Shown: piece by piece, positions 7,819 to 61,170 of the stretch
How the letters are laid out: each line of letters opens with the position of its first letter
Position numbering within the stretch: position 1 is the stretch's first letter
Translations under genes and position numbers: made by a program
Assembly (NCBI RefSeq): GCF_034350045.1
Contig: NZ_CP133781.1
Coordinates: 1,704,001-1,768,000 of the forward strand
Source of the DNA: Pseudomonas sp. CCI4.2
Lineage (GTDB): Bacteria; Pseudomonadota; Gammaproteobacteria; Pseudomonadales; Pseudomonadaceae
Length of the DNA stretch: 64,000 nt
Direction of reading: 5' to 3'
Notes under the pieces: model-generated
The model's input: the letters and a program-made list of their open reading frames with translations, nothing else
Database searches by the model: none
What the model was told of the DNA's origin: nothing

Positions 7819-8982
7819 TCAAACACCCACCGCCTGGGCATGACGCCGTTGCAGGTAGATGTAGAACAGCGCGGTCAGCACGGTCAGTACGGCGAGGGCA
7901 GCGCCGGTCCACGGCAAGTCGGCCAGGTTCGAGCCGCTGCCGACCACCAGGCCGCCGACCCAGGCGCCCGCCGCATTGCCGAGGTTAAAAGCACTTTGGT
8001 TGAGCGTCGACCCCAAGTTCGGGGCGTCACTGGCCTGATCGATAATCAGCAGCTGCAAGATCGGACACAGCGCGAACGCTACCACACCCCATATCAATAG
8101 AGTGATCGCGGCCGGAATCACCGAATGCGCGGTCTGGCTGAACAGCGCCACGACCAACACTACCGCCACTGACATTCCCACCAGCGAGGGCAACAAACGG
8201 CTATCAGCCAGCTTGCCGCCGAGCATGCTACCGCCGGTCAGCCCCAATCCAAACAGCAGCAGCATGAGGGTCACGCCGCGGGGGCCGACACCGGTCACGT
8301 CGTGCAGAATCGGCGCGATATAAGTGAAAACGCTGAACAGACTGGTCGACGCCAGCACGCTCATCGCCAATGCCAGCAACACAGTGGGTTTGCCCAGGAC
8401 GCGAAACTCGATGGCTAGGTTGGTTTCTTCCATGGCGATGTGGTTCGGCAGCCAGATCATCTGCGCCACGACCGCCACCATGCCAATCGCCGAGACCGCC
8501 CAAAACGTTGATCGCCAGCCCGCGTATTGACCAAGTGCCGTGCCCAGCGGTACGCCCAAGACGTTAGCCAAGGTCAAGCCGGTGAACATCAGCGCAATGG
8601 CCTGCGCCCGTTTGTTCGGCGCGACCAAGCCGGCGGCCACTACCGAGCCGATGCCGAAAAAGGCACCGTGGCACAAGGCGGTAATGACCCGCGCAGCCAT
8701 TAGCGCAGCGTAGGTCGGCGCCAGCGCACACAAAATATTGCCGAGGATGAACATCAGCGTCATGCCGAGCAAGGTGGCTTTGCGCGGCATGTTGGCAGTA
8801 GCGACCGCAAGGATCGGCCCGCCAAACACCACGCCAAGCGCGTAGCCGGTGATCAGCAATCCAGCGCGGGGAATGCTGACGTGCAGGTCGCCGGCGACAT
8901 CGGGCAGCAATCCCATGATCACAAATTCAGTGGTGCCAATGCCGAATGCGGCAACGGCCAGTGCAAGCAAGGCGAGTGGCAT
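7819..8982 (-). CDS. MFS drug/sugar efflux transporter, DHA1 type
   Basis: This 387-residue protein, from the ATG at 8982 with GGGA upstream, has about 12 hydrophobic segments. The first, MPLALLALAVAAFGIGTTEF, followed by VIMGLLPDVA, is typical of AraJ/Bcr-like major facilitator efflux pumps. The A-loop region is recognisable near GGPILAVATANMPRKATL. A longer reading to 9030 adds 16 polar residues and is less likely. It is convergent with cysQ. The substrate is unknown. Confidence 0.85.
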   Translation of the reverse strand: MPLALLALAVAAFGIGTTEFVIMGLLPDVAGDLHVSIPRAGLLITGYALGVVFGGPILAVATANMPRKATLLGMTLMFILGNILCALAPTYAALMAARVITALCHGAFFGIGSVVAAGLVAPNKRAQAIALMFTGLTLANVLGVPLGTALGQYAGWRSTFWAVSAIGMVAVVAQMIWLPNHIAMEETNLAIEFRVLGKPTVLLALAMSVLASTSLFSVFTYIAPILHDVTGVGPRGVTLMLLLFGLGLTGGSMLGGKLADSRLLPSLVGMSVAVVLVVALFSQTAHSVIPAAITLLIWGVVAFALCPILQLLIIDQASDAPNLGSTLNQSAFNLGNAAGAWVGGLVVGSGSNLADLPWTGAALAVLTVLTALFYIYLQRRHAQAVGV

Positions 8983-9207
8983 GTGTCTATTTCCCGTGTG
9001 TAACCTTGACGCCTGAGCAAGCACACGCATGCGACCGGCTCACTCGATCAGGTGATCGACGAGTGCATAAACGCAGGCTTATTAGAATAGTTTGAGTGCG
9101 CAACTGGGTACGGCGTAATAGTGGTTAGTATATGCAGCAACTGAAATATGGCGAATCGAATCCTCAGCGGACGCTTTTCTATAACCCTGTTTAACAAGGA
9201 AGCCCCA

Positions 9208-10047
9208 GTGCTGGCAACGGCTCTAGTGTTAATTGCGGCAGTGCTGCATGCCACCTGGAATACCTTGATCAAGTTCAGCGGCGAGCGCCTTCTGGTCATC
9301 GCCAGCATGGACGCTGTGGGGCTGGTGTTCGCTGTGTTGATGGTGGCTTTTGTTACCCCACCCCCCCTTGAGGTCTGGCCGTGGCTGCTGGCCTCAGCGG
9401 CGTTCGAGCTGGTTTATCGGGCTCTGTTAATCAGGGCGTACCGGGTCGGAGATTTGGGCTTGGTCTATCCGTTGATGCGCGGGCTGTCGCCGTTGGTGGT
9501 GTTGGGGTTAACGCTGCTCTTTGCGGGGGAGCAACTGAGCGCCCAACAAATCCTCGGCATCTTGCTGATTCCGTGCGGCATGGTTTGCTTGCTGTGGCAC
9601 GGTGGCGGTGGCGAACGGTTGCCTTGGTCGATGCTGCCGGTGGTTGGCTTGATTGGTCTGTGCATCGGTTGCTACACCTGGATCGATGGCCAAGCACTCA
9701 AGCGCGGCGCCGGTGCGCTGGATTATCTGGTGTGGTTGACGTTGATCAGTGCTTGGCCTTTTCCAGTGCTGGCGGTGTGCAACAAGCGCTCTGCGTTTAC
9801 TGCGTTTTGGCGTGAGCAATGGCGGTTGGGGTTAAGCGTCGGGTTGTGCGTGTTGTTCAGTTACGCCCTGGTGCTATGGGCCATGCAAATTGGTTCGGTG
9901 GCGGAGGCGGCAGCCCTGCGCGAAGTCAGCGTGGTGTTGGTGGTGCTGTTAGGCATGCGTTACCTGAAAGAACCTTTTGGTCGGCCCCGACTCATAGCCT
10001 GTGGGCTAGTGTTGTCTGGGATGCTTTTAATGAAATTAAAACTATAA
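9208..10047 (+). CDS. EamA/DMT-family inner-membrane transporter
   Basis: The protein is 279 residues with about ten membrane segments and two EamA repeats, the usual drug/metabolite transporter layout. The GTG at 9208 is preferred because AAGGAAG lies just before it and the next residues open the first membrane helix (VLATALVLIAAVLHATWNTL). A run of eight or more C at 9359-9366 is a place where sequencing errors could shift the frame, but the frame stays open. The substrate is unknown. Confidence 0.83.
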   Translation: MLATALVLIAAVLHATWNTLIKFSGERLLVIASMDAVGLVFAVLMVAFVTPPPLEVWPWLLASAAFELVYRALLIRAYRVGDLGLVYPLMRGLSPLVVLGLTLLFAGEQLSAQQILGILLIPCGMVCLLWHGGGGERLPWSMLPVVGLIGLCIGCYTWIDGQALKRGAGALDYLVWLTLISAWPFPVLAVCNKRSAFTAFWREQWRLGLSVGLCVLFSYALVLWAMQIGSVAEAAALREVSVVLVVLLGMRYLKEPFGRPRLIACGLVLSGMLLMKLKL

Positions 10048-10057
10048 GGATGGACTC

Positions 10058-10444
10058 ATGACCGTTGCTTTCTGGTGCGTATTTATCGCGATATTCCTGC
10101 CGTATTTATGCACAGGCGTCGCCAAATTCAGCGGCGGCCAATTTGGCGCTCGGCAGAACCACGACCCGCGCGCATTTTTAGAGAACTTACAAGGTTTCGC
10201 CAAGCGTGCGGATTCTGCGCAACGAAACAGCTTTGAAGTTACGCCAGCGTTTGCGGCAGCAGTGATCATTTCGCAGTACGTCGGGCACGCGCAGATGGTG
10301 ACGATCAATGTGCTGGCGGTGTTATTCATCACCAGTCGTCTGCTGTACATCATTTGTTATCTGGCTGATTGGGCGCCCTTGCGGTCATTGTTCTGGGCCA
10401 TCGGCATGGGAATCGTTGCTGCGCTTTTCTTTATTTCAGCCTAA
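10058..10444 (+). CDS. MAPEG-family membrane protein
   Basis: This 128-residue protein has four hydrophobic segments and the MAPEG-type signature around ARQNHDPRAFLENLQGFAKRA, followed by NSFEVTPAFAAAV. MAPEG proteins are trimeric membrane proteins; many are glutathione-linked, but activity in bacterial members is mostly untested. It starts 10 bases after the EamA transporter with AAGGATGGACTC upstream, so the two are probably cotranscribed. Confidence 0.82.
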   Translation: MTVAFWCVFIAIFLPYLCTGVAKFSGGQFGARQNHDPRAFLENLQGFAKRADSAQRNSFEVTPAFAAAVIISQYVGHAQMVTINVLAVLFITSRLLYIICYLADWAPLRSLFWAIGMGIVAALFFISA

Positions 10445-10536
10445 ATGACGAGCCGACTGCGGCAACGGTGCGCTTGGCCTTTGGCGATGAGCCGAGGATA
10501 CTGGCGACCGTTTCCCTAGCTGAAGCCGTCATAACC

Positions 10537-10983
10537 TTGAAAAGACTTTCCGTAGTATTGCTGGCCTGCCTGACATTGAGCGCTTGCGGTGGTGTTGATC
10601 CGAACTCACCGTTGGGCCAGCGCAAGGCGATCTTCAAACAGATGTTGAAGACCAGCGAAAACCTGAGTGGCATGCTCAAAGGACGCGTCGTATTTGATGG
10701 TCAGCTGTTCACCGACGGCGCGATCAAGCTCGACAGTCTGTCCCATGAGCCATGGAAGCATTTCCCTTCGGTCAAGGAAGAGTCGTCGCACAGCAGCGCC
10801 AAGAATGACGTTTGGGAGAAACAGGCACGCTTTCAACAATTGGCTCGCTCGCTTGAATCAGCAACCGGTGAGTTGGTAATCGCCACCAATGCCAAGCCCT
10901 TCAGCGCCAGCAACCTCAATCCTGCGGTGCAGAAAGTGCAGGACGCCTGCGAGGCGTGCCATAAAGAGTTTCGCGATCACTAA
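10537..10983 (+). CDS. c-type cytochrome lipoprotein, cytochrome c'-like
   Basis: From the TTG at 10537 the product is 148 residues with a lipoprotein signal (KRLSVVLLACLTLSAC, lipidated Cys17) and a single C-terminal haem motif Cys138-Glu-Ala-Cys141-His142. A haem site at the extreme C-terminus of a mostly helical protein is the cytochrome c' pattern. The frame is open upstream to 10369, but residues there are not signal-like, so the TTG start is inferred. It follows the MAPEG gene closely. Confidence 0.75.
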   Translation: MKRLSVVLLACLTLSACGGVDPNSPLGQRKAIFKQMLKTSENLSGMLKGRVVFDGQLFTDGAIKLDSLSHEPWKHFPSVKEESSHSSAKNDVWEKQARFQQLARSLESATGELVIATNAKPFSASNLNPAVQKVQDACEACHKEFRDH

Positions 10984-11001
10984 GATCCACATCAATCCCC
11001 T

Positions 11002-11073
11002 TAGAACCAACATGTTGGCGGGCAAACCCGCGGTGTGACGGGTACGCCGCTTCGCCAACACGTTGGCTCCTAC
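11002..11073. repeat. REP-type palindrome, GTAGGAGCCAAC family
   Basis: Arms TAGAACCAACATGTTGGCG and CGCCAACACGTTGGCTCCTA flank a GC-rich centre. It separates the cytochrome gene from the convergent DUF1090 gene. Confidence 0.8.
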
Positions 11074-11094
11074 AGATGGTTGCGGCAAACGGGA

Positions 11095-11505
11095 TCAATC
11101 GTCATCCGGCTCAATCTTCTCCAGCTCCGCATGGGCGTCCTTCAATTCCTGGCGGGCTTGGGCGAGCTTGTCTTTGCGTGTATTGATTTTGTCCGGGTCG
11201 CCCTTGCTCATCGCACGGTCCAAATCTGACTGACGACGGGCCACTTCGTGTTTGGCGTCCAACACTCTTGTTTCAAGCTGTTTGAGAAGCGAGGCGTCGG
11301 TGCAGTTAGCGGTAGCTTCGCTTAATGCTTTTTCCAGCCCGGCTTGCTGAGCGCTATTGCCGTTGGCTTTGGCCTGTTCAATCTGAGTACTGATGGCCTG
11401 ACGCTTGGCGGCGCAACCGTTCAGTGGCGGCGCGTCGGCGGCCAATACGGGCACAGCCAACAAGCTGCACGCGGCGAATAGGAGCAGCGGTGACAAGCGT
11501 TTCAT
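11095..11505 (-). CDS. DUF1090 periplasmic protein
   Basis: This 136-residue protein starts with a clear signal peptide (MKRLSPLLLFAACSLLAVP, cleavage after VLAA). The mature part is a charged helical protein with two cysteines (NGCAAKR and TANCTDAS) and a heptad-rich C-terminus ending in EKIEPDDD, as in the DUF1090 (YqjC-like) family. No enzymatic function is known. It lies downstream of ligB on the same strand, about 40 bases away. Confidence 0.85.
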   Translation of the reverse strand: MKRLSPLLLFAACSLLAVPVLAADAPPLNGCAAKRQAISTQIEQAKANGNSAQQAGLEKALSEATANCTDASLLKQLETRVLDAKHEVARRQSDLDRAMSKGDPDKINTRKDKLAQARQELKDAHAELEKIEPDDD

Positions 11506-46348: not shown

Positions 46349-46615
46349 CCTTCATAGATTGGCAATAACGTTCACCAATTGCGTCGGCATAAGCATATTA
46401 GGGAAATAGATCCCCAGGGTATCCCTCCATCCAAGAGCCTCGCCAAGTCGCGAGTCGCGGGTCGGGTTTTTGGTATCTGCCAAGTGCCGCCATTAAGATT
46501 GAAGGCTCTCCAGCGGGCGAAGCGCGGTTCGCTGGGGCGCGCGAATACATGCAGGGAAAAGCGATGCACACAAAAAAGGCCCACCTTGCGGTGAGCCATT
46601 CTAGTTACTGCGTAT

Positions 46616-46733
46616 GATGCGGTACCAGACGAACGGTAGCTTGCGGCGAGGCTAGGTTTTCTGCGGATCTGGAATTCGCTGGAAAATTCGGCGTACCCCA
46701 ACTAGTAACTATAAATAAATCAGCTAGTTATGG
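46616..46733. repeat. Imperfect direct repeat, copy A
   Basis: This 118-base block matches copy B at 47,531-47,649 at roughly 80 percent by eye. Shared segments include ACCAGACGAACGGTA, GGCTAGGTTTT, GGCGTACCCCAA and the closing ATAAATAAATCAGCTAGTTA. The two copies flank relBE in the same orientation. Confidence 0.85.
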
Positions 46734-46872
46734 CTTTCAGTGGAATCGAATCGGGGACTGGTAAGCTGTGAGCATGTGCTGTGCTCGGTACGTAGAGCTG
46801 CGAGCGACACACGTAACCCTGTGAGTTGTGTAAAAACCAACCGTTTGTAGGCTTGCCCAAATGAGGTTTTTA

Positions 46873-47431: not shown

Positions 47432-48006
47432 CGAGTACGCAACGTATAAGTGAAAAGCCCGCCGAGTCAGGCTGTGTGAAAATGCGAGCATGATTACGGG
47501 AGTGGGGCTCCGTAGCATTCAGTGGAACGCGATGGCGGCACCAGACGAACGGTAATTAGGTGCGGGGCTAGGTTTTCCGCGGGACTGGAATTCAATGGAA
47601 AATTTGGCGTACCCCAATCCGTAACCATAAATAAATCAGCTAGTTATGGACTTAAACGGATTCAAACTCGGGAGTTCCTTCCTGTGATGTGGATCCTTGA
47701 TTCCTATCTCGAACGCAGATTTACAAGCTTAGGGTACGCGTATGCTGCTGTGCCAGGTGGAATCCTTACGGTAGATAGGTGTAATGGCATAATGATAACT
47801 TTTCGACTACTGGTGAGCTAATCAGTAGGCGGTGCTTTGTGGTTGGAGCCGAAAAAGGTCCAGCTCATCTAATAAAAATTTCAGCTTACTGGCCAGTAAT
47901 ATTGTTCGCATGTCGGAGTCATCAAAAGATATGTAACTGGCCGATGGAATGCGCTAGCCAAACTTGAGAAAGATATTTCAGCTGAGAAGGGACTCGTAGA
48001 TACTTC
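47432..48006. other. Gene-poor stretch after relBE
   Basis: About 575 bases hold direct repeat B (47,531-47,649) and otherwise nothing convincing. An open frame on the plus strand across the repeat (about 47,522-47,821) has no family pattern and is treated as chance. Confidence 0.5.
47531..47649. repeat. Imperfect direct repeat, copy B
   Basis: This is the partner of copy A. The last 22 bases before the end (ATAAATAAATCAGCTAGTTA then TGG) are identical in both. The spacing puts relBE exactly between the copies. Confidence 0.85.
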
Positions 48007-48216
48007 ATGAAAAGTACTGAAGATTTTTACTCAACAAAGCCTCGCGAACAAGTTGGTAGAGATACCTTCTTAAGATATAGGGCTCAGATACGAGCTGCCG
48101 CGCTCGCCGCCTTAGAGATTTTGGAGGGCGGTGAGGTTGATAGAATTTTTTGCGATTACCATGACGATTTCGTGATTGGAAAGAAGGTCTCTGGTAAGTC
48201 TAGGGTACCCAAGTAA
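48007..48216 (+). pseudogene. N-terminal remnant of a DUF4297-type nuclease
   Basis: The 69-residue frame opens DFYSTKPREQVGRDTFLRYR, followed by ALEILEGGEVDRIFCDYHDD, a layout I associate with the N-terminus of DUF4297 (dsDNA nuclease) proteins, the effector of some ABC-three-component systems and of Cap4. The nuclease proper (the later D-ExK part) is missing. The sequence then runs into the ATPase below in another frame within about 48,190-48,205. An internal deletion is the simplest cause. Family call is moderate because only the first part survives. Confidence 0.6.
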
Positions 48217-49816
48217 GTTTCGAGATGACATACTCGAGAACTGTCTGTGTGCAGAGTTAGAATTTGAAATCAATAATTTTAACTATGTTGTGCGTCGTAA
48301 TTTTAAACCGGGACTAGATGTTGTTTTAACCGATTTTGCAGGAGTTAAGCACGAATTTTCAAATGAGCTTGACTACTCTAAATATCTTTTTGAGTTGTTA
48401 GGGTTCGATATACCTACATTGGTCTCTAGTGATGAAAAAAAAGCAGCACAGCCGTACTTCTCCGCTTTGCTCCCTATCTATTATTTAGATCAGGAGGAGG
48501 GATATCGTAAGTATTATAGCCCTAGTGCTTCCTTTATAAAGGATCAGCTTTCCGAGTCTATTCGAATTATTTTGGGCGTGGCGCCGAAGAACGCATTTGA
48601 TGCGAAGAAGAAACTGATTGACGCCAAGCGTGAACTCGAACAGCGCGATAAGCAAGTATATGCACTAAAAAAAGAATATGAGTCAGCAAAAGATGTCTAC
48701 GGATCTATGGATCCGTTAGGAATAGATGTGGAACTCAAGTCTTTGTACCAAAGGCTTGAAGAGCTAAAAAGCGGTACTGCAGATAAAACTGCCTCCACAG
48801 ACGCTATTGATGAACTGATTGGGTCGAATAACGAAACCATCCGGTCTCTAGATCGGGAGCTAGGAGATATCTCAAAGCGTGACCGCAGCTTTCAAAGAAT
48901 TCATGCAGAGATTCAAACCGAAATCAATACATTGAGCCTGAATGAAGAAGCGAAAAGAGTATTTTCTTCTTTTGAGGAGATCTGCAACTCTGCTGGCTGT
49001 CAATTGTTTTCATTCAGCTCTGACTCTTACGGGAAAAATTTACTTTATTTAAAGGATCAGTTAAAAGATCTGGAGCGCAATGTTGACATCGGGCGTGGGA
49101 GGAGTGAGCAATTAAATCTGCGCCGGGGTGAGTTAGTAGCTCAGACTCAAAGCCTTACTGAACGACGAAATTCTTTGGTTAATACTTCAGATATAAAAGC
49201 GCTGGTTGAGGCTATTACCCAAATTACGTCGAGGATATTTGGTCTGGAGCAGGATAAAAAATCTTTAGAGTCGATCGAAGATATTTCAAATCGTTATGTT
49301 AGAGCTTTATCAGCTCAAGATGAAGCTATTAACCGAAGGGAAGAGCTCGAAAAAACTGGGCAAGGTAGTCCTCTCATCATCAGGTTTAGAAGTGTGCTGA
49401 GAGAGAATATGCTTAAGTGGATGGATATCCTAGATACAAATAATGTTTCTAGCGATATAAAATTTGAGGGGGATTTCGTACCAATTTTAGGCAACGAGAG
49501 ATTAGCTCAGTTAGGTGGGAGTACTCGGCTCCGTGTGATTCTTGCGTATCATGCGGCGCTTCTGGAGTGTTTTGAGCTTTCTAAAAGAAGGAAAGTATCG
49601 TTCATCATCTTCGATACTCCAAAGCAACATGAAATGCATGGGGTTGATCTAGGACGCTATATTGATGCGCTTAAAGTGTTTTCACGTGCAACAGGTGTTC
49701 AGATTATAATATCCGGGACGGAATATCACTATGTTGGAGATGCTAGAGATAAAGATTGGGAACCTAAATTTCCTGGTTCTAAGCAGAAGATGTTCTTGAC
49801 GACAGGGAGGGTGTGA
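48176..49816 (+). pseudogene. SMC/Rad50-like ATPase lacking Walker A
   Basis: About 535 residues remain from the segment LGYPSKFRDDILENCLCAEL onward; the first codons are not native. A long coiled coil fills residues 130-420. The C-terminal part carries the ABC signature-like LGGSTRLRVILAYHAALL and Walker B FIIFDTPKQHEMHG. The Walker A segment expected before LGYPSK is gone, so the protein should not bind ATP normally. The order nuclease-ATPase fits an ABC-three-component defence locus whose middle component has been deleted with the flanks. Confidence 0.65.
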
Positions 49817-49930
49817 TACTTACAGGTGTTCGTGAATTTAAGAGTCTCGAAGTATTTATTGGATCTTAATATTGATGTATGGAGTGGATGTATTGGTATG
49901 CTGTATCTAATAGTATTTATGCTTGCCAGT

Positions 49931-50922
49931 TCATCCATACTTTTTCAACCATTCCTTCAGTTGTATGAAGTCTACCAAGCCTAGTTGGTGTTGAAATATT
50001 TTTGAAAATTTGATGGCGTCAGGAGAGAAATAGGATGATGTGATCATTATTCCAGCCGTGGCTCTATCGGCAGACATGGCGCCAACTAGTTCGCGTACAA
50101 GATTTACACCAACTGGATTGGTCGGTGCATATTTTTTGCACTCAACATAGTACATCAAATTTCTACGTCCATGTGGTTGGCAATAATTAGATCTTTTCCC
50201 CCATCTCTTGTTTTTTTTGTCAGCTTAACCTCGAAGCCTCGTTTGATCATTAGTTCGGCAACCATTTCTTCGAATTCTCGAGAGGTGCGTTTGTACATAC
50301 CCTCCGGATTTTGCCTAACTCTCTCAAGTATCGTTTTGTTTACAAGCCGGATATCAGTAGACAGCTGAATGAGTTTTTCTGAATTGGTAGGAACTGCTAA
50401 TTCAGAATCACTAAATCCACTCTTGTAGCTTATTCCTTGGTTTATAACTTCTGAGATCTCGCTCGAGTTATAGGCGTTGCTGTTTAAATATTGAGCGACT
50501 AATCTAAGTAGAAAGAGGTTTCCTTGAGTGAAAGCTGTGATTTTCGTTAATTCATTTTTTGGCATTCTCTCTGATAGGAACTCCAAGATAAACAAAATAG
50601 ATTCGTTGGCGTGCAAAGATTCTAAATGTATATGCTCTCTCGGGGAGAAGCTCTCCAAAAAATCTTTGTATGCACCTACTGGTAAAAATTGCTTTTGGGG
50701 GTATTTTTGTATGAGCTGATTTATTTTTTCTTTTGAGCTTATAGTGTGGTCTAGACTAAGATCCTCAAGGATTACTAATGTGACGTTATTTTCTATGTCG
50801 GGAAATTTTTCATGGTGCAGAACAGTATAAATTATTTTAGTGTTTTTTATTATGTTTTCGTCAAGCCTTAGTAGCATAGCTTTCCACAGACTAGTTTTGC
50901 CGATGGAGTTGTTTCCTGAAAG
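49931..50922 (-). pseudogene. P-loop NTPase-Mrr nuclease fusion, frameshifted and cut
   Basis: On the minus strand the frame enters at about 50,922 with a P-loop (GNNSIGKTS at 50,916-50,890), then Walker B-like VTLVILEDLSL, a helical region, and an Mrr-type nuclease core (FEEMVAELMIKRGFEV, RDGGKDLI). The frame is lost at 50,155 (EI stop) and resumes in the next frame with MYYVECKKYAPTNPVG, the ExK half of the active site. Adding one T in the AAATTTG run would join the two halves. The start of the gene is missing at the junction with the AlbA_2 gene. Confidence 0.72.
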
Positions 50923-51848
50923 GTGGTACCAGCGATTGCCGGAACAGGCTAATGCACCAAATGTTTCTTCTTATCGGTCTTGGCGAGCGTGGTGGTTCTG
51001 GGGTTCCAAAAATCTACAGCGGGTGGCGCAGCCAGCATTGGCGACCGCCAGCCCTTTATGAAAAGCCCGAGCCCGAGCAAACCCTTCTTGAGCTTCGCAT
51101 GTTGGACTTGCTTCCTGAAGGGGTGGTGGAGCAGTTACGAGAGCGATTTGGGGTTCGTTTCGAGAGCTTGGAACATACTGCCAGGTTGATTTTGGCCACG
51201 GCCGCGATTGAGCGGGTGGTCAGCCATAATCGTCTCCTTGAGATTTGTGATACTCATGCTCATGACTTGAGCCAACTGCTTACGCGGTTGGTACGCGAGG
51301 GATTCCTTGTGCCCGACGGGCGCTCACGGGGCATGATTTATCACCTGCCAGGTGAGCAACTGCCTACGCCGGAGCAAGTGTTCGCAGGTCCGCTACAGAG
51401 CTCCGAACATTACGCCGGCAGCTCCGAACATAACAGGGCTAGCTCCGAACATAACGCAGGTAGCTCCGAACATAAGGTCGAGCTGGATATGCAGCGAAAC
51501 GATGATGGCTGCTTGTTGAGCGATCATATTGACGCGCCGCTGATCGATGCTTTGGACAGGCTTGATGCAGGGTTTCGAGAAAAGCTCGAAATACTGGCTG
51601 AGGAGCCGCGCAATCGAGAGCGCATGCAAAAGGATCGTATGCAACAGGTGATTATCACCCTATGCAAGGAGCACTATCTGACGTTCAACGTGTTGGCTAA
51701 TTTGGTAAAGCGCAGTCCAGATGCCCTCCGTCAGCAGTACCTGAATGGAATGGTGAAAAGTAGGCAGATTCAGTTGGCATTTCCGTCCAAGCCGACTCAT
51801 GAAAGGCAGGCGTACAAAGCGTACGTTGGTGGGCAGGACGAGGAGTAG
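50922..51848 (+). pseudogene. AlbA_2-type ATP-binding protein, 5' truncated
   Basis: The frame runs from about 50,922 and opens GGTSDCRNRLMHQMFLLIGL, the internal motif that in AlbA_2/RecG-related ATP-binding proteins follows the nucleotide-binding domain, so the N-terminal half is lost. About 308 residues remain, with a winged-helix-like region (LSQLLTRLVREGFLVPDGRS) and a Ser-Glu-His repeat linker. The last 299 residues are open from an ATG at 50,952. The break coincides with the missing start of the NTPase-Mrr gene on the other strand. Confidence 0.68.
51399..51482 (+). repeat. Four-unit 21-base tandem repeat inside the AlbA_2 gene
   Basis: Units of 21 bases begin AGCTCCGAACAT and encode SSEHxxx four times (SSEHYAG, SSEHNRA, SSEHNAG, SSEHKVE). 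The frame is preserved, so the array acts as a flexible linker in the protein. Confidence 0.88.
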
Positions 51849-52664: not shown

Positions 52665-52824
52665 TGGCGGATGGTCGGAATCGGACACAGGTCTGAAAGA
52701 GGTTATGGGGATCGGCCAGGCATTGATCAACCGACGCCTCTAATCTGGGGCGTCTACCAAGTGTGGACACTTTGTGGACGGTTAAGCGGAAACAAGCGTG
52801 GGTTTCTTAAACCCCAGAAACCAA

Positions 52825-52847
52825 AAAGCCCCGCGTAGCGGGGCTTT
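52825..52847. terminator. Intrinsic terminator left of the island
   Basis: AAAGCCCCGC-GTA-GCGGGGCTTT is a perfect ten-base-pair hairpin flanked by A and T runs, just six bases before the att repeat. It could end transcription from either side. Confidence 0.85.
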
Positions 52848-52852
52848 GAGAT

Positions 52853-52881
52853 ATGGTGCCGGCACCAAGAGTCGAACTCGG
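52853..52881. repeat. Island att site, left copy
   Basis: The 29 bases (ATGGTGCCGGCACCAAGA then GTCGAACTCGG) are identical to 61,094-61,122 at the tRNA-Thr 3' end. The match stops here because the next bases differ (CACC against GACC). This marks the far boundary of the element inserted at the tRNA. Confidence 0.88.
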
Positions 52882-53219
52882 CACCAGCAGTCACGTAAAT
52901 CATTGTTTTGGATGGGATTAGCCTGCTCATCGTAGCAGGTGTTTGTAGGAGCTGCGGAGCTCTGTTTTGAGTGCGAGATTTGCCCGTTGAATGGGTTCCC
53001 CAAACGACGACCTCCTAGGTTTGTATGGGCACGTTGGAGGCATTGGAGTCATCGTTCGGCGCACAATTCTGTGAATCCTTAGACTAAGGCGCCAGCGCCG
53101 CTCCAGGCGTTCAAATATTCAGATCCAACCACCAGCCGCACGAAAACTGCCACAGTCGAGCCACTTGAAGTCTTCGCACGATCTTTTATGCTCGACCAAT
53201 CCTACTCTGAGCTTGCCCT

Positions 53220-54164
53220 ATGAACTCGTCACCTCTCCCACTGGGCTTGCTAGACCTCAGTCTTTATCAAATTTCGCCGAGCATCGACTTCATGAAATTT
53301 TCCTGCGCGTTCATGAATTTTGAGCTGCCCTCCGGTCGACTCAAAAGAACTCTGGATTCGCAGGGGAAGCACATCTTTACGCTGCATGATCCCCGGCCGG
53401 AGGAGGTCCGCATCATTGCAGAAATGGCTCCAAACGCGGTTCTCGAAGAGCTGGAAGTGAGTCTGGATTTCCTTCCAAAAAACGGCCGCTCACTTGCCCT
53501 AGACGACCGGCATGGACGCTTGGAGCAAGTGCGCCAATGGTTGATAGGTCAGCTTTACCCGTGGGATGCGCCGGGAATTCAGGTTTCCAGCCGCGCATCC
53601 CAAGCCGCCAATAAGGTCGAGGCTCTATTCAACGGCGACGTTGAGCGCCGTCCTCATCCGCGAGAAACTCTTTATCTTGGGCACAAGGACGCCAAGTATG
53701 GCTCTATAGATCAACCGAATTTCGCGTTCATGCGGGTCTATCGAAAGGTCACAGATAACCGCCGAGCCCTTCCACCAAACAAGCATTGCTGTCGGATCGA
53801 GGTCAATCTTAACCAGCTAGGCTGTGCCTACTTTCAGATCCACCGTCCCGCAGACTTGCTGAATTTTAACTACCGCAAGCTCGGAAGCTATTTTCGGTTG
53901 ATTCGCCCGCAGGCTAGGCCCGTCCTGTTGAGGAAGTTGAGGCGTTTACAGCCCAAGACGGCTGAGGTTCTGGAAGCAGCAAAGAACAAATTATTGCTCG
54001 AAAGGGTGGAGTCGGTGGGGGCCTATGTCGCTGGTTTTAATAGGTCGCTATTCATCACCAGTGACCGGGCAGCCAAACCTAATGAGCGCATTCAGCATGC
54101 GTTGAAAAGCTTGACCCGCACTTGGGGTCGCGCTTCCGTTGAAACCGGGACAATCGAAAAATAG
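53220..54164 (+). CDS. Replication-initiator-like island protein
   Basis: This 314-residue protein has an acidic beta/alpha pattern with ETLYLGHKDAKYGSIDQ, FAFMRVYRKVTDNR and CCRIEVNLNQLGCAYF, which recalls the replication-initiation-factor (Rep_trans/RstA-like) fold of small phages and plasmids. No clear tyrosine or metal site is sure. It is the first gene after the left att repeat. If it is a Rep protein, the island may replicate after excision. The call is tentative; the conserved blocks themselves look real. Confidence 0.5.
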   Translation: MNSSPLPLGLLDLSLYQISPSIDFMKFSCAFMNFELPSGRLKRTLDSQGKHIFTLHDPRPEEVRIIAEMAPNAVLEELEVSLDFLPKNGRSLALDDRHGRLEQVRQWLIGQLYPWDAPGIQVSSRASQAANKVEALFNGDVERRPHPRETLYLGHKDAKYGSIDQPNFAFMRVYRKVTDNRRALPPNKHCCRIEVNLNQLGCAYFQIHRPADLLNFNYRKLGSYFRLIRPQARPVLLRKLRRLQPKTAEVLEAAKNKLLLERVESVGAYVAGFNRSLFITSDRAAKPNERIQHALKSLTRTWGRASVETGTIEK

Positions 54165-55209: not shown

Positions 55210-55692
55210 CTATTTGTGTTTAGATGCGTGCGCCCAGCGCACCGCCGACACTATTCCAAGATTCCCTGCGTCGTTTGGTCGACGCCATTTGGCAATTGGC
55301 ATTCTCTCGAGATACGCCAGCGCTTCCTCAAATGAGCCAAGACGAATTTCCGCGCCCTTATCTCCTACCCGGAATGTGCCATCTCTCGGGCTGGCTAGTC
55401 CTCGGTGGAAGAACGACCCATCTGATGCGTATGGCACGAGCTCTGAGGGTTCGCCTGAGCTTGCTGGCTGGACGATCTCGAAGAGAACTTGCGGATCTAC
55501 GTCGAGAGCTTCAGCAAGCCCCTCAATCGCGTCAAGAGATGGGTTTCCTAGACCTCTCTCAAGTCGACTCATGTAACTGCGTGCGATCCCAGCATGATCT
55601 GCGAACGCTTCCTGGCTGAGGCCTGAGGCGACCCGGAGCTGTTTGATACGAAGCCCAAATCGTTGGCGTAGAGAAATAGTCATGATGGCCAT
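55210..55692 (-). CDS. XRE-family transcriptional regulator
   Basis: The 160-residue protein has a classic Cro/CI helix-turn-helix at about residues 8-62 (GLRIKQLRVASGLSQEAFAD, GIARSYMSRLERGLGNPS). The rest is a short acidic-to-basic tail with no known domain (KGAEIRLGSFEEALAYLER). It is divergent from the secreted-protein gene at 55,761 and could control it or the island genes. Two ATGs precede the stated start region; the exact start is uncertain. Confidence 0.82.
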   Translation of the reverse strand: MAIMTISLRQRFGLRIKQLRVASGLSQEAFADHAGIARSYMSRLERGLGNPSLDAIEGLAEALDVDPQVLFEIVQPASSGEPSELVPYASDGSFFHRGLASPRDGTFRVGDKGAEIRLGSFEEALAYLERMPIAKWRRPNDAGNLGIVSAVRWAHASKHK

Positions 55693-56919: not shown

Positions 56920-57489
56920 TCACGTTGAGCTGTCACGTATCGCGCTGATTGTAGCTCTTGAAACCTTGTGGGTTCGCGCTAGGGAGCTGACGCTCGCGCC
57001 CTCTGATACGGCCTTTAAAATTTCAGATCGTTGCGCCTGTGCGAGCTTGGGCGGCCTGCCAAGTATCTTCCCTTCTGCCTTAGCGCGGGCCAATCCGGCT
57101 TGAGTCCTCTCGATCAAAAGATCCCTTTCCATTTCTGCCACAGCCGCCAGCATCGACAACAAAAGCTTGCCAGCCGGTGAGGTTAGGTCGGTTGAACCGA
57201 GCTGGTGGACGACTACCTTGATGTCTCTTTTCCCAAGATCCCGAACCGTCTGAAGCACATCGATAGCATCCCGACCCAGTCGGTCGAGTTTGGAAACCAA
57301 CAAGGTTTCACCGTGACGAATCTTGGTCAGCAACTCCTTGAACGCAGGGCGCTGCGCAGATGCTGATTTGCCGCTGATGATGTCTGCGAACCAATAGTCG
57401 ATTGCCCATCCAGCATTAGCGAGCTCCAGCCGCTGATTTTCCGTTTCCTGAAGGGAAGTTGATACGCGTCCGTATGCGAAGGTGGCCAT
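56920..57489 (-). CDS. Serine recombinase, resolvase/invertase family
   Basis: This 189-residue protein has the serine-recombinase core: Arg8 and Ser10 in AYGRVSTS, LLVSKLDRLGRD, and the C-terminal helix-turn-helix KVSRATISAIRDS. The size fits a resolvase or invertase. It is convergent with the zinc-ribbon gene and divergent from the HNH gene; candidate res sites lie in the gap toward the HNH gene. Confidence 0.9.
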   Translation of the reverse strand: MATFAYGRVSTSLQETENQRLELANAGWAIDYWFADIISGKSASAQRPAFKELLTKIRHGETLLVSKLDRLGRDAIDVLQTVRDLGKRDIKVVVHQLGSTDLTSPAGKLLLSMLAAVAEMERDLLIERTQAGLARAKAEGKILGRPPKLAQAQRSEILKAVSEGASVSSLARTHKVSRATISAIRDSST

Positions 57490-57492
57490 CTG

Positions 57493-57600
57493 CTATTTTC
57501 TCCTGTAGGAATACGGTGTCGAAAATAGGATGGCCTGTCAGAAAAGCCAAGGCTATTTTCCTGACAGTTCGCCAGACTGCTTTTGAGGGCTGCCAGAAAA
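57493..57600. promoter_or_regulatory. Candidate res site of the serine recombinase
   Basis: Inverted pairs CTATTTTC (57,493-57,500) with GAAAATAG (57,521-57,528), and CTGTCAGAAAAG with TTTTCCTGACAG (57,535-57,567), lie directly upstream of the recombinase. Related copies of TGCCAGAAAA extend to 57,600. This spacing of short inverted subsites is typical of Tn3-type res, but subsite boundaries are by eye. Confidence 0.55.
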
Positions 57601-57675: not shown

Positions 57676-58794
57676 ATGGCTCTATGTGCTCTTTGCGATG
57701 TGGAAATCACCGAAGAAAATGATTCAAGAGAACACATCATTCCAAACAGTATTGGCGGGCGAAAGAAAGTTAAAGGGTTTATATGTAACCCATGCAATAA
57801 CCAAAGTGGCGGTCAATGGGATACAGAACTGGCCAGACAGCTAAACCCACTAAGCCTGATATTTCACATAAAAAGAGAACGTGGTCAACCGCCCTCTCAG
57901 ACATTTGACACTACCAGTGGAGAGAAGCTCACCCTACATCATCAAGGTGGAATGTCTCCATCAAAACCAGAGTTTAAGGAGGAAATGCGGGATAACAAAA
58001 CTGCTATTAGTATTATTGCAAGGGATGCAGAGGAGGCGAAAAGAATGCTGAGGGGTGTTAAGAAAAAGTATCCATCGGCAGACACGGATAAATTTTTGAA
58101 TGACGCAGCAGTGGAATACCGATATTTAGATGGTATGTTGAAAATGAACTTAGAGTTCGGCGGACCTGAAGCAGGTAGGTCGGTGGTCAAAACGGTCCTT
58201 GCGTTAGCCTCTCATTCCGGGATTTCGCCCGGCATCTGCGAGCATGCGATTAGCTACCTAAGACATGACGGCGTGCCATGCTTCGGTTACTACTATGAAC
58301 GTGATTTGTTAATTAATAGGCCTCCTAATGTGCCGTTACATTGCGTGGCAATATCAGGAGATCCTGAAACAGGATTGTTGTTAGGCTATCTGGAGTATTA
58401 CGGAATTCGAAAAATGGTAGTTTGCCTTTCGGAAAAATACTCAGGCTCTAAAATTGCGGCTAGTTATTCATTCGATCCCACAACCGGCACAGAGCAAAAA
58501 ACCGACGTAGATATCTCGCTAACTATTGAGGAGATTGCCGCTGCTTATAATTATGAGAAATGTGACTCCGGCTCAGTTGTAAACTGCTTCCACCAAGTGA
58601 TGCCTCGCGCTTTAAAAGCATCTTTTGAGAGAGAACAAAACCGTGTGATTTCAGATGCTGTTAACTTTGCATTCAAAAACTGCGGAGCTGAAGAAGGCCA
58701 GGTCTTGACTGACGAGCAAGTGCGAGTGTTAACAGGTAAGCTTGCAGAGAAAATGGTTCCATATATTTTGAGTCAAATCAAAATAAATAAATGA
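57676..58794 (+). CDS. HNH-motif protein with uncharacterised C-terminal part
   Basis: The 372-residue protein opens with a zinc-ribbon-backed HNH motif: Cys4-x2-Cys7, then SREHIIPNSIGG and FICNPCNNQSGG (CxxC). The remaining 300 residues have no domain I recognise; segments such as LYLEYYGIRKMVVCL and QVRVLTGKLAEKM give no clue. The codon use is AT-rich compared with the chromosome. Single-gene HNH proteins beside recombinases are frequent in defence regions, but a defence role is inference. Confidence 0.75.
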   Translation: MALCALCDVEITEENDSREHIIPNSIGGRKKVKGFICNPCNNQSGGQWDTELARQLNPLSLIFHIKRERGQPPSQTFDTTSGEKLTLHHQGGMSPSKPEFKEEMRDNKTAISIIARDAEEAKRMLRGVKKKYPSADTDKFLNDAAVEYRYLDGMLKMNLEFGGPEAGRSVVKTVLALASHSGISPGICEHAISYLRHDGVPCFGYYYERDLLINRPPNVPLHCVAISGDPETGLLLGYLEYYGIRKMVVCLSEKYSGSKIAASYSFDPTTGTEQKTDVDISLTIEEIAAAYNYEKCDSGSVVNCFHQVMPRALKASFEREQNRVISDAVNFAFKNCGAEEGQVLTDEQVRVLTGKLAEKMVPYILSQIKINK

Positions 58795-59052: not shown

Positions 59053-61011
59053 CTAAACTCTGGTTTGTTGTATAGCGATTTTCTCTTTTTGAAACAATGC
59101 ATCGCGAATAGCATCAAGGCCATCCGCGACCATAAATCGTTTGATCGAAGGAAGCGCAAAGTCCAGCGGATCTACATATTGTTTTAATTTATCTGCGTCT
59201 CGATCTTTTCGATAGCGGTTCGCAGTTTCCGTGCTTCCTCTGACGTGGCCAGCGAGCTGAGCCTGAATCGCCGGCGGGGTATCGAGTTCGTCTAGTGCAG
59301 TAATAAATCCATGGCGGAACGAATGGAAGCTAAGCTTCCCATCGCGGGGTATCTTAAGTTTTTGTCCAAGAAAGCGTCCGTTGAACCAAGTTCCAGCCGG
59401 TTTTCCATAGCCTTTGATGGCGTCGTGGGCGAGTTCGGGAAATAGCCGGTCATAACCAGCGCTTACAAGAGCGGTTACATATTCGGGCAACCCGAGTTCA
59501 ACTAAGTGTGGGTGCATGGGAACGGTCCGCTTGGAGTTTTTATTCTTGAGCGATTTCTCTGGAGCCTGCGTATTACCATTGGCGACGATTTTTTCTCCGG
59601 AAGCCTCTAATGTGATGTCGAAATAGTAAACTCCGGTATCGCTTATTTTAATGTCTTCCAAGTTCAGCTGTGCGATTTCGTTAAGCCGAGCTCCAGTATA
59701 GAGCCCAAGCAAAGGTAGCCAATAATGATGCGGCCTAAAGTGATGAAACCGCTCCTGCTTGTTCCGCTCACCGGTCCCTGTTGTGAACCAACTGACCGAA
59801 AAGATTTGTGTTAGATGTTCCCTCTCAAACCGTGAACGTTGGTCTTGGTCTCGTATTTCACTCCTCGGTCGCTCTAATATTTTCTTCGCGGGATTATGGG
59901 TGAGGATCATCTCATCCACAGCCCACGTAAACATGCTTGACAGCGCCTTCATGTAGTCGTCTACGCTAGTCGGTGATAGTCGGACCTCGTTGTTCTGCTC
60001 TGCCAATATTAGTAATTGGTTTGTGTCTTTTGTTCCGTGGCGCAGGCTGGCGGCATTCCGATCAGCGGGCATATTGTTTAGCTTCAGCGTGTATTCCCGA
60101 ATCAACTCTCGGCTCAGCGTGCCGAGTAGTGGGTCGCTCATTAGCTCTACGAAAGTTCGGCAGTGACCCGCCATCTTCTTTTGTTGTCCCGGCCCCCAAC
60201 GGACCTTCTTGCTATCGAGGAACATTTCCATCAATGACGACGTTACTTGCTTTGCCCTTTCTGGTCGGCAGCATTCAGGAGGTAGGGTTGCAGTGAAAGA
60301 CGACGGCGACGGTTCCAAGACGCGAGGAAGAGCGGCTGCCGAGCTTAGGGCGGCTGACACCGGTCCACTTATCAGTCTCTCGGCCTGCACCTTTGATATC
60401 AATATTGTGCTTGCCGTGAGGCGGATGCCGGGTAGATCGAAAAAGGCAGTCGCTCGATTCAGGCCCGATACCCGAAAGACTGTTTCATCGCAAAAGCCGA
60501 TATCTATGATGCTTAGAATTATTCTGCGGGTAGAGAACGGCTTTAAGAGGCGGTCAAAGGTATGCGGCTCTCCAACCTCCATCGCACTGTTGAGGATAAA
60601 CTCGCTGGTCCCGCTTTCGCGTTCGACCTCGAAGAAATCGTGGACCAGAAAACCGGGTTGTGAGCTTGCCTCATAGACGAACAAAAGTTTGTTGATCAGC
60701 ATTTCACGAAGCAAGAATCCGACATCTAGCCCGGATCCATTACTCAATTCGTTGATGCTGATAAGTCCCTTTCCGGTCAGCAGGGGGCCGATTTCAACAA
60801 GCTTTTTATTGTCCACTTCCAACTCGCTAAGACAAGAGTGCCAATGACACTGAAACCGGCATGCTACAGCCTTCGCTGTGCTCCGATCAGTGGTGCGGGT
60901 GGAAATATGGATTTCACGTTGCCCGATCTGATCGCGGTGGCGAGTCGGGACGATGATGCGAAGGACATAGATACCGCTTTGCCTGCGGTAGAGGTTGTCA
61001 CGTTGAGACAC
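59053..61011 (-). CDS. Tyrosine integrase of the tRNA-Thr island
   Basis: The GTG at 61,011 is preferred: AAAGGG sits seven bases upstream and MSQRDNLYRRQSGIYVLR follows; the frame is open to 61,050. The 652-residue protein has an N-terminal DNA-binding region of the DUF6538 type (YVLRIIVPTRHRDQIGQ) and a C-terminal integrase domain. Catalytic parts are LYTGARLNEIAQL (Arg), HSFRHGFITAL (His-x-x-Arg), LAGHVRGSTETANRYRK (His and Tyr). It stands directly beside the tRNA-Thr 3' end, so it most likely made the insertion. Confidence 0.92.
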   Translation of the reverse strand: MSQRDNLYRRQSGIYVLRIIVPTRHRDQIGQREIHISTRTTDRSTAKAVACRFQCHWHSCLSELEVDNKKLVEIGPLLTGKGLISINELSNGSGLDVGFLLREMLINKLLFVYEASSQPGFLVHDFFEVERESGTSEFILNSAMEVGEPHTFDRLLKPFSTRRIILSIIDIGFCDETVFRVSGLNRATAFFDLPGIRLTASTILISKVQAERLISGPVSAALSSAAALPRVLEPSPSSFTATLPPECCRPERAKQVTSSLMEMFLDSKKVRWGPGQQKKMAGHCRTFVELMSDPLLGTLSRELIREYTLKLNNMPADRNAASLRHGTKDTNQLLILAEQNNEVRLSPTSVDDYMKALSSMFTWAVDEMILTHNPAKKILERPRSEIRDQDQRSRFEREHLTQIFSVSWFTTGTGERNKQERFHHFRPHHYWLPLLGLYTGARLNEIAQLNLEDIKISDTGVYYFDITLEASGEKIVANGNTQAPEKSLKNKNSKRTVPMHPHLVELGLPEYVTALVSAGYDRLFPELAHDAIKGYGKPAGTWFNGRFLGQKLKIPRDGKLSFHSFRHGFITALDELDTPPAIQAQLAGHVRGSTETANRYRKDRDADKLKQYVDPLDFALPSIKRFMVADGLDAIRDALFQKEKIAIQQTRV

Positions 61012-61094
61012 GTTGTAGCCCTTTGTAGGACCTACGTGACCTATAAACAAAAAATCACCGAAATCCGTAAGGAAATCAGTGATTTATGTAGTAA

Positions 61095-61170
<76 letters not shown>

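Follow-up and report, generated by a model that had tools for sequence, protein, structure and literature searches.

A stand-alone HNH_5 nuclease with a conserved C-terminal region, carried by a tRNA-Thr island of Pseudomonas sp. CCI4.2: a candidate defence gene

The open reading frame at positions 57676–58794 of the analyzed stretch of Pseudomonas sp. CCI4.2 DNA (64,000 nucleotides, here called the window) encodes a predicted 372 amino acid protein with an N-terminal HNH_5 domain and a conserved C-terminal region of about 300 residues. The protein appears to be a stand-alone HNH nuclease which travels as mobile cargo and needs no partner to destroy phage DNA or other foreign DNA that enters the cell, a reading to which we give somewhat better than an even chance. 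Its patchy spread and its neighbours suggest protection against phages or other invading DNA, and it is a plausible new defence candidate rather than an established system. The positions of the features are given in Table 1.

Table 1. Features of the HNH gene and its surroundings, in window coordinates.
Feature	Position	Strand	Basis or remarks
HNH nuclease gene	57676..58794	+	whole ORF including stop, 372 aa; ~60 full-length homologues; dN/dS 0.08–0.14
HNH_5 domain, residues 4–56	57685..57843	+	PF14279, E 8.6e-13
Middle module, residues 72–145	57889..58110	+	beta-rich, then two helices; model secondary structure
Core C-terminal module, residues 146–286	58111..58533	+	helices and antiparallel strands; model and conservation
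C-terminal helical module, residues 284–372	58525..58791	+	model secondary structure
Serine recombinase (resolvase family), divergent neighbour	56920..57489	-	PF00239, E 1.2e-36
Repeats between resolvase and HNH gene	57532..57600		inverted and direct repeats
Tyrosine integrase of island	59053..61050	-	PHROG integrase E 8.1e-32; PF00589 E 1.6e-6; DUF6538 E 2.3e-9
tRNA-Thr(TGT), integration site	61095..61170	-	ARAGORN
Attachment repeat at tRNA end	61094..61126		33-nt direct repeat
Distal attachment repeat	52853..52885		97% identical; bounds 8.24-kb island
LmuB of Lamassu, adjoining left island	48176..49816	+	PADLOC LmuB E 3.5e-209; outside 8.24-kb island

The HNH gene and its family

The gene lies exactly where the original prediction placed it, on the plus strand, and is a genuine gene, beyond a chance open reading frame. 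About 60 full-length homologues spread over several phyla form one conserved family. The best identities are about 60% elsewhere in the genus, 51–52% in Martelella alba and 40–50% in many Proteobacteria, with further members in Bacillota, Bacteroidota, Chloroflexota, Nitrospinota and other phyla. Classes and phyla are intermixed in the family tree. Close pairs within the family display dN/dS values of 0.08–0.14, thus the protein is kept by purifying selection. The gene was also predicted to be AT-rich, and its GC content is indeed 43.5% (40.3% at third codon positions) compared with about 52%–63% in the part of the window to the left of 45 kb and about 57% over most of the window.

Damaged copies are present in the family, i.e. 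an interrupted one in P. savastanoi and one with a stop codon near its start (locus L184). Broken copies are usual for accessory genes. In an Oscillospiraceae MAG (L077, positions 8636–11107) the HNH protein forms the in-frame end of an 823 aa open reading frame for a RumA-like rRNA methyltransferase. The fusion is probably an accident of read-through, and could stem from an insertion at the rumA 3′ end or from an assembly effect. At positions 766–2190 of L186 a distant homologue follows the first part of a resolvase in the same frame, and here again the family is found beside resolvase genes.

The HNH_5 domain

Residues 4–56 match Pfam HNH_5 with a score of 48.5 bits, the gathering cut-off of PF14279 being 27.5, which bears out the HNH ribbon recognized in the original prediction. 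The domain displays the zinc cysteines C4, C7, C37 and C40, the E19-H20 pair, N41 and D49; the E-H pair and the two CxxC zinc knuckles are present as in the Pfam model. E19, H20, G27, G28, C37, C40 and N41 are invariant in all 61 aligned sequences, and C4 and C7 are found in 60 of them. Many other proteins contain PF14279 domains as well, with matches over the cut-off in 97 of 398 genomes, and the family is among the common integron-cassette endonucleases listed in PMC7370490.

Architecture and searches of the C-terminal region

The whole protein was modelled with very high confidence (pLDDT 94.2, pTM 0.89). The model displays the HNH domain with a long helix at residues 38–62, a middle module at 72–145, a core at 146–286 and a helical tail at 284–372. 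The core modelled alone has a pLDDT of 91.7. Outside the HNH domain, the positions conserved in about 90% or more of the 61-sequence alignment are R67, R69, G70, G162, G163, S169, K172, D210, R215, Y238, E240, F242, Y255, G257, Y264 and P268; those from GG162–163 onward, leaving aside F242, are the conserved residues of the core.

Two short homologues, L081 and L082, lack the middle module and match the profile at positions 3–92 and 159–281 only. Since these two sequences retain just the HNH domain and positions 159–281, the core seems to be the part that the HNH domain cannot do without. Across 369 genomes of the class, the core profile matched at four places, and all four read into HNH sequence upstream.

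The C-terminal region of about 300 residues exceeds no curated cut-off in Pfam or NCBIfam and has no PHROGs or PADLOC match at E ≤ 0.001. Foldseek comparison with the PDB, using the whole model and the core alone, gave no match at E ≤ 0.001, and neither did comparison of the whole model with viral models. In profile searches of the PDB, profile A1 found HNH domains together with chance-level matches, and the 142-position profile A6 found no credible match. VIA-align gave weak matches, with a best Z of 5.2 that fell almost entirely on the long helices at 284–372, and 3.9 for the core. Homology of the C-terminal region to solved proteins was thus rejected, as profile searches, Foldseek and VIA-align yielded no credible PDB match. 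The missing PDB relatives do not prove a new fold, and none is claimed for the core. The earlier description of this region as unrecognized therefore holds for the libraries searched, with the refinement that it is a conserved family which is unmatched in those libraries only.

Full-length profile-profile comparison with other HNH_5 proteins gives a probability of 91%–96% for two groups, which is largely driven by the HNH domain. When the HNH domain is removed, one HNH_5 group scores 20.7, the best of 100 column-permuted nulls being 18.7, and the scores of three other groups are within their nulls. These scores hint, with weak statistical support, that a remote form of the core may be present in some other HNH_5 proteins. 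The architecture was not found described in the open literature on PF14279 and on HNH single-gene defence.

The island at tRNA-Thr

The tyrosine integrase abuts tRNA-Thr. The 22-nt core of the attachment repeat is found at its two places only, with 0.01 occurrences expected, and the outer flank at positions 52811–52852 lies directly against tRNA-Thr in two relatives, which is consistent with an empty site. The integrase, the pair of repeats at the tRNA and the relatives resembling an empty site show that the HNH gene is cargo of an 8.24-kb island. The original prediction had placed the gene in an island beside a serine recombinase. Both the island and the recombinase (56920–57489, minus strand) are present; the island is defined by the tyrosine integrase and the tRNA-Thr repeat and not by the serine recombinase.

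An inverted repeat (CTGTCAGAAAA/TTTCCTGACAG) at positions 57535–57567 and a direct repeat (GGCCTGTCAGAAAA/GGGCTGCCAGAAAA) lie between the resolvase and the HNH gene; from their sequence these repeats are a possible res site. The island also contains a Cro/C1-type regulator (55210–55692) and small proteins. A 314 aa island protein at positions 53220–54164 has no Pfam or NCBIfam match and, on the impression given by its sequence, may be a replication or mobilisation protein.

The adjoining left island, which contains LmuB about 8 kb from the HNH gene, is older than the 8.24-kb island. LmuB lacks about the first 47 residues of its model, and a short frame before it is possibly the beginning of a further Lamassu gene. 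A Mrr-type endonuclease is split over two frames on the minus strand (49931–50158 and 50155–50877), and the Lamassu remnant at 48008–50877 looks degenerate. At the left end of this neighbouring foreign stretch there are two 139-nt repeats of 81% identity (46619–46757 and 47535–47673), both of which contain short stretches resembling a tRNA end. Positions 46570–46628 match the sequence beside tRNA-Thr in three relatives. The repeats are possibly the remains of an older attachment site, i.e. of tandem islands at one tRNA. A 21-nt short tandem repeat (AGCTCCGAACATAA...) is found at positions 51399–51475, inside an open reading frame (50952–51848) that has a weak Fic-like C-terminal match at its end.

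Distribution and mobility

The family is present in 16 of 398 congeneric genomes, in two of 293 of the order and, by the core profile, in four of 369 of the class. In bacterial genomes at large 64 loci were found, and homologues are present on 17 plasmids and, with an alignment as query, on 13 provirus contigs; a single-protein query of the viral contigs gave no match. None of 50,697 GenBank phage records has a homologue. The carriers are proviruses, plasmids (conjugative ones included) and integrative islands. The presence is sporadic, and wide occurrence outside of mobile regions was not found. Likewise, no match of the C-terminal region to a housekeeping enzyme was found in Pfam, NCBIfam, PHROGs, PADLOC or the PDB.

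Neighbouring genes

Comparison of the neighbours at about 80 loci shows no conserved partner gene. The commonest neighbour is a resolvase, which is present at seven loci. An operon partner was rejected on this ground, and a model of insertion linked to a res site was dropped since the side and the distance of the resolvase vary between loci. In five Pseudomonas provirus loci (L066, L067, L093, L098 and L099) the gene is near UmuC/UmuD-like and SOS-peptidase-like genes. This position at the UmuC/UmuD side is a possible accessory-gene slot for defence cargo.

The immediate neighbours (±1 and ±2 genes), in two halves of 105 and 101 proteins, show 378 and 96 matching PADLOC families, compared with 91 families for genes seven to eight places away in the same loci. 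For 104 genes at random places in ten congeneric genomes there were eight families (best E 7e-12), a control that comes from one genus while the neighbours come from many, and in which nine of the ten genomes carry the family, complete or in part, and the tenth has a weak HNH match only. Since ATPases match many models at once and so raise the family counts, the number of strong distinct systems is the fairer measure. At E ≤ 1e-40, one half of the ±1–2 neighbours gives at least eight of these: PDC-S06, SduA, a CBASS effector (of the 4TM type), a CBASS cyclase, SoFic, HsdS, LmuB and PDC-M24A. The other half gives at least six, i.e. PDC-S28, AbiO/Nhi, SduA, PDC-S06, DpdH and PDC-S15. Dsr1 is also among the immediate neighbours. 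About three strong systems (under 1e-45) are found at seven to eight genes, versus none among the random genes. On the named plasmids, type I restriction-modification, MazEF, RelBE, Abi and toxin-antitoxin genes are nearby, and ATPase genes of AAA_21/AriA/PtuA type are also among the neighbours.

The co-occurrence with defence genes that had been proposed as a check is therefore positive, strong PADLOC matches being common at the neighbours, scarcer seven to eight genes away and absent at random places. The larger number at immediate neighbours than at seven to eight genes indicates that the gene is associated with defence genes beyond the average of its islands. An association of this kind can also be due to hitch-hiking. 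The HNH protein itself matches no model of PADLOC 2.0.0 at E ≤ 0.001; the best, an oligonucleotide-cyclase model, has a chance-level E-value of 0.015.

Proposed function and alternatives

The protein is predicted to be a zinc-stabilised beta-beta-alpha metal HNH nuclease carried by integrative islands, proviruses and plasmids. The N-terminal HNH_5 domain would cut DNA; its general base is probably H20, and E19, N41 and D49 probably belong to the active site. The C-terminal region, comprising the middle module, the core and the helical tail, would recognize the target and restrain the nuclease, the core presumably selecting foreign DNA, and the C-terminal helices may dimerise the protein. A nuclease travelling alone would have to spare each new host immediately. 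Because of this need, and because there is no conserved partner gene, a type IV-like mode appears the most likely, in which the protein would sense modified DNA or some other property of foreign DNA. This mode stays an analogy, since no known reader domain was detected and the domain order is opposite to that of McrA and TagI; that recognition depends on modification is a tentative suggestion with clearly less than an even chance. It is also doubtful, if possible, that the homologues in several phyla represent a new family of single-gene anti-phage nucleases in which the core is a new sensor fold that detects some feature of invading DNA and unleashes the N-terminal HNH_5 nuclease.

The original prediction, which left the choice between single-gene defence and a mobile endonuclease, is partly supported. 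Co-occurrence with defence genes and sporadic spread agree with the former, and the latter, read as a homing endonuclease, fits less well. The gene could be a selfish, free-standing homing-type HNH endonuclease that spreads itself by cutting a target in DNA without the gene, and the C-terminal region would be its DNA-binding module. The HNH domain, the single gene, the mobile contexts and the recurrent resolvase neighbour fit such an enzyme, and the repeats next to the resolvase gene may represent a preferred site. However, neither a fixed insertion site nor conserved flanks are found across about 80 loci, an intron or intein context was not found, and the Pfam search gave no match to a known homing-type DNA-binding repeat. 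Lytic phages commonly carry HNH homing enzymes, whereas the GenBank phage records contain no homologue. Homing is thus the less likely explanation, and we consider it improbable.

The frequent location on mobile DNA, with a resolvase as the commonest neighbour, would also be expected of a protein that serves the mobile element by exclusion of competitors or by stabilisation or processing of element DNA, possibly together with neighbouring recombinases. Competitor exclusion shades into defence. The resolvase varies in position and orientation, however, and is missing from most loci, and the host elements (conjugative plasmids, proviruses and integrative islands) are unrelated and share no common transfer step, so that we regard service to the element as rather unlikely. 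The chances are similarly low for a cargo nuclease of repair, RNA processing or stress that is unrelated to phages and lies near defence genes only since islands collect both. PF14279 domains are present in many other proteins, as described above, and genes seven to eight places away likewise show more defence matches than random genes do. Nevertheless strong matches are commoner at immediate neighbours, and the presence of the gene is sporadic and strongly transferred, both of which argue against such a role. If phage restriction by the stand-alone nuclease is true, it would be a compact, widely transferable one-gene defence that is absent from PADLOC 2.0.0, and it would offer a tractable test of what the unmatched C-terminal module senses. 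The A6 profile, the conserved candidate residues and the named homologues make sensing directly testable.

Comparison with known systems

The protein shares with Pfam HNH_5 (PF14279) an N-terminal domain over the cut-off, with the four-cysteine zinc site and the E-H pair. The Pfam model is 56 residues only, however, and the conserved C-terminal region is not described there. Thus the HNH domain is known, and its combination with this C-terminal region is undescribed in the libraries and open papers searched.

Similar to the type IV HNH enzymes EcoK McrA, TagI and VcaMI, it is a single-gene HNH nuclease without a cognate methyltransferase. Type IV enzymes attack modified DNA only and need no methyltransferase, and McrA is located on a mobile prophage-like element (PMC12707154). 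No paired methyltransferase was found for the present gene: the resolvase at seven loci is the nearest to a conserved neighbour, the Pfam tallies of neighbours covering the 25 commonest families, and none of eight proteins of the island region matches a methyltransferase. Unlike McrA, TagI and VcaMI, which have an N-terminal reader and a C-terminal HNH domain, the present protein has the reverse order. The HNH protein has no Pfam match to a modified-DNA reader (SRA, EVE, winged helix, McrA N-domain or DUF262), and the Foldseek comparison, which can miss weak fold matches, gave nothing at E ≤ 0.001.

GmrSD/BrxU (DUF262-DUF1524) has an HNH-fold nuclease that restricts modified phage DNA, with proposed residues DH-N-N-D (PMC12707154). 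These are similar to EH-N-D of the present protein, which however lacks the DUF262 NTPase domain. Septu PtuAB and other two-gene HNH systems also have an HNH protein, and ATPase genes of the PtuA type are among the neighbours here; unlike in Septu, there is no conserved ATPase partner and no PADLOC match to PtuB. Free-standing HNH homing endonucleases are likewise one-gene HNH nucleases on mobile DNA, but the present family has no fixed site, no copies in GenBank phages and no recognized homing DNA-binding repeats. The protein is thus best called a stand-alone HNH nuclease and a candidate for defence.
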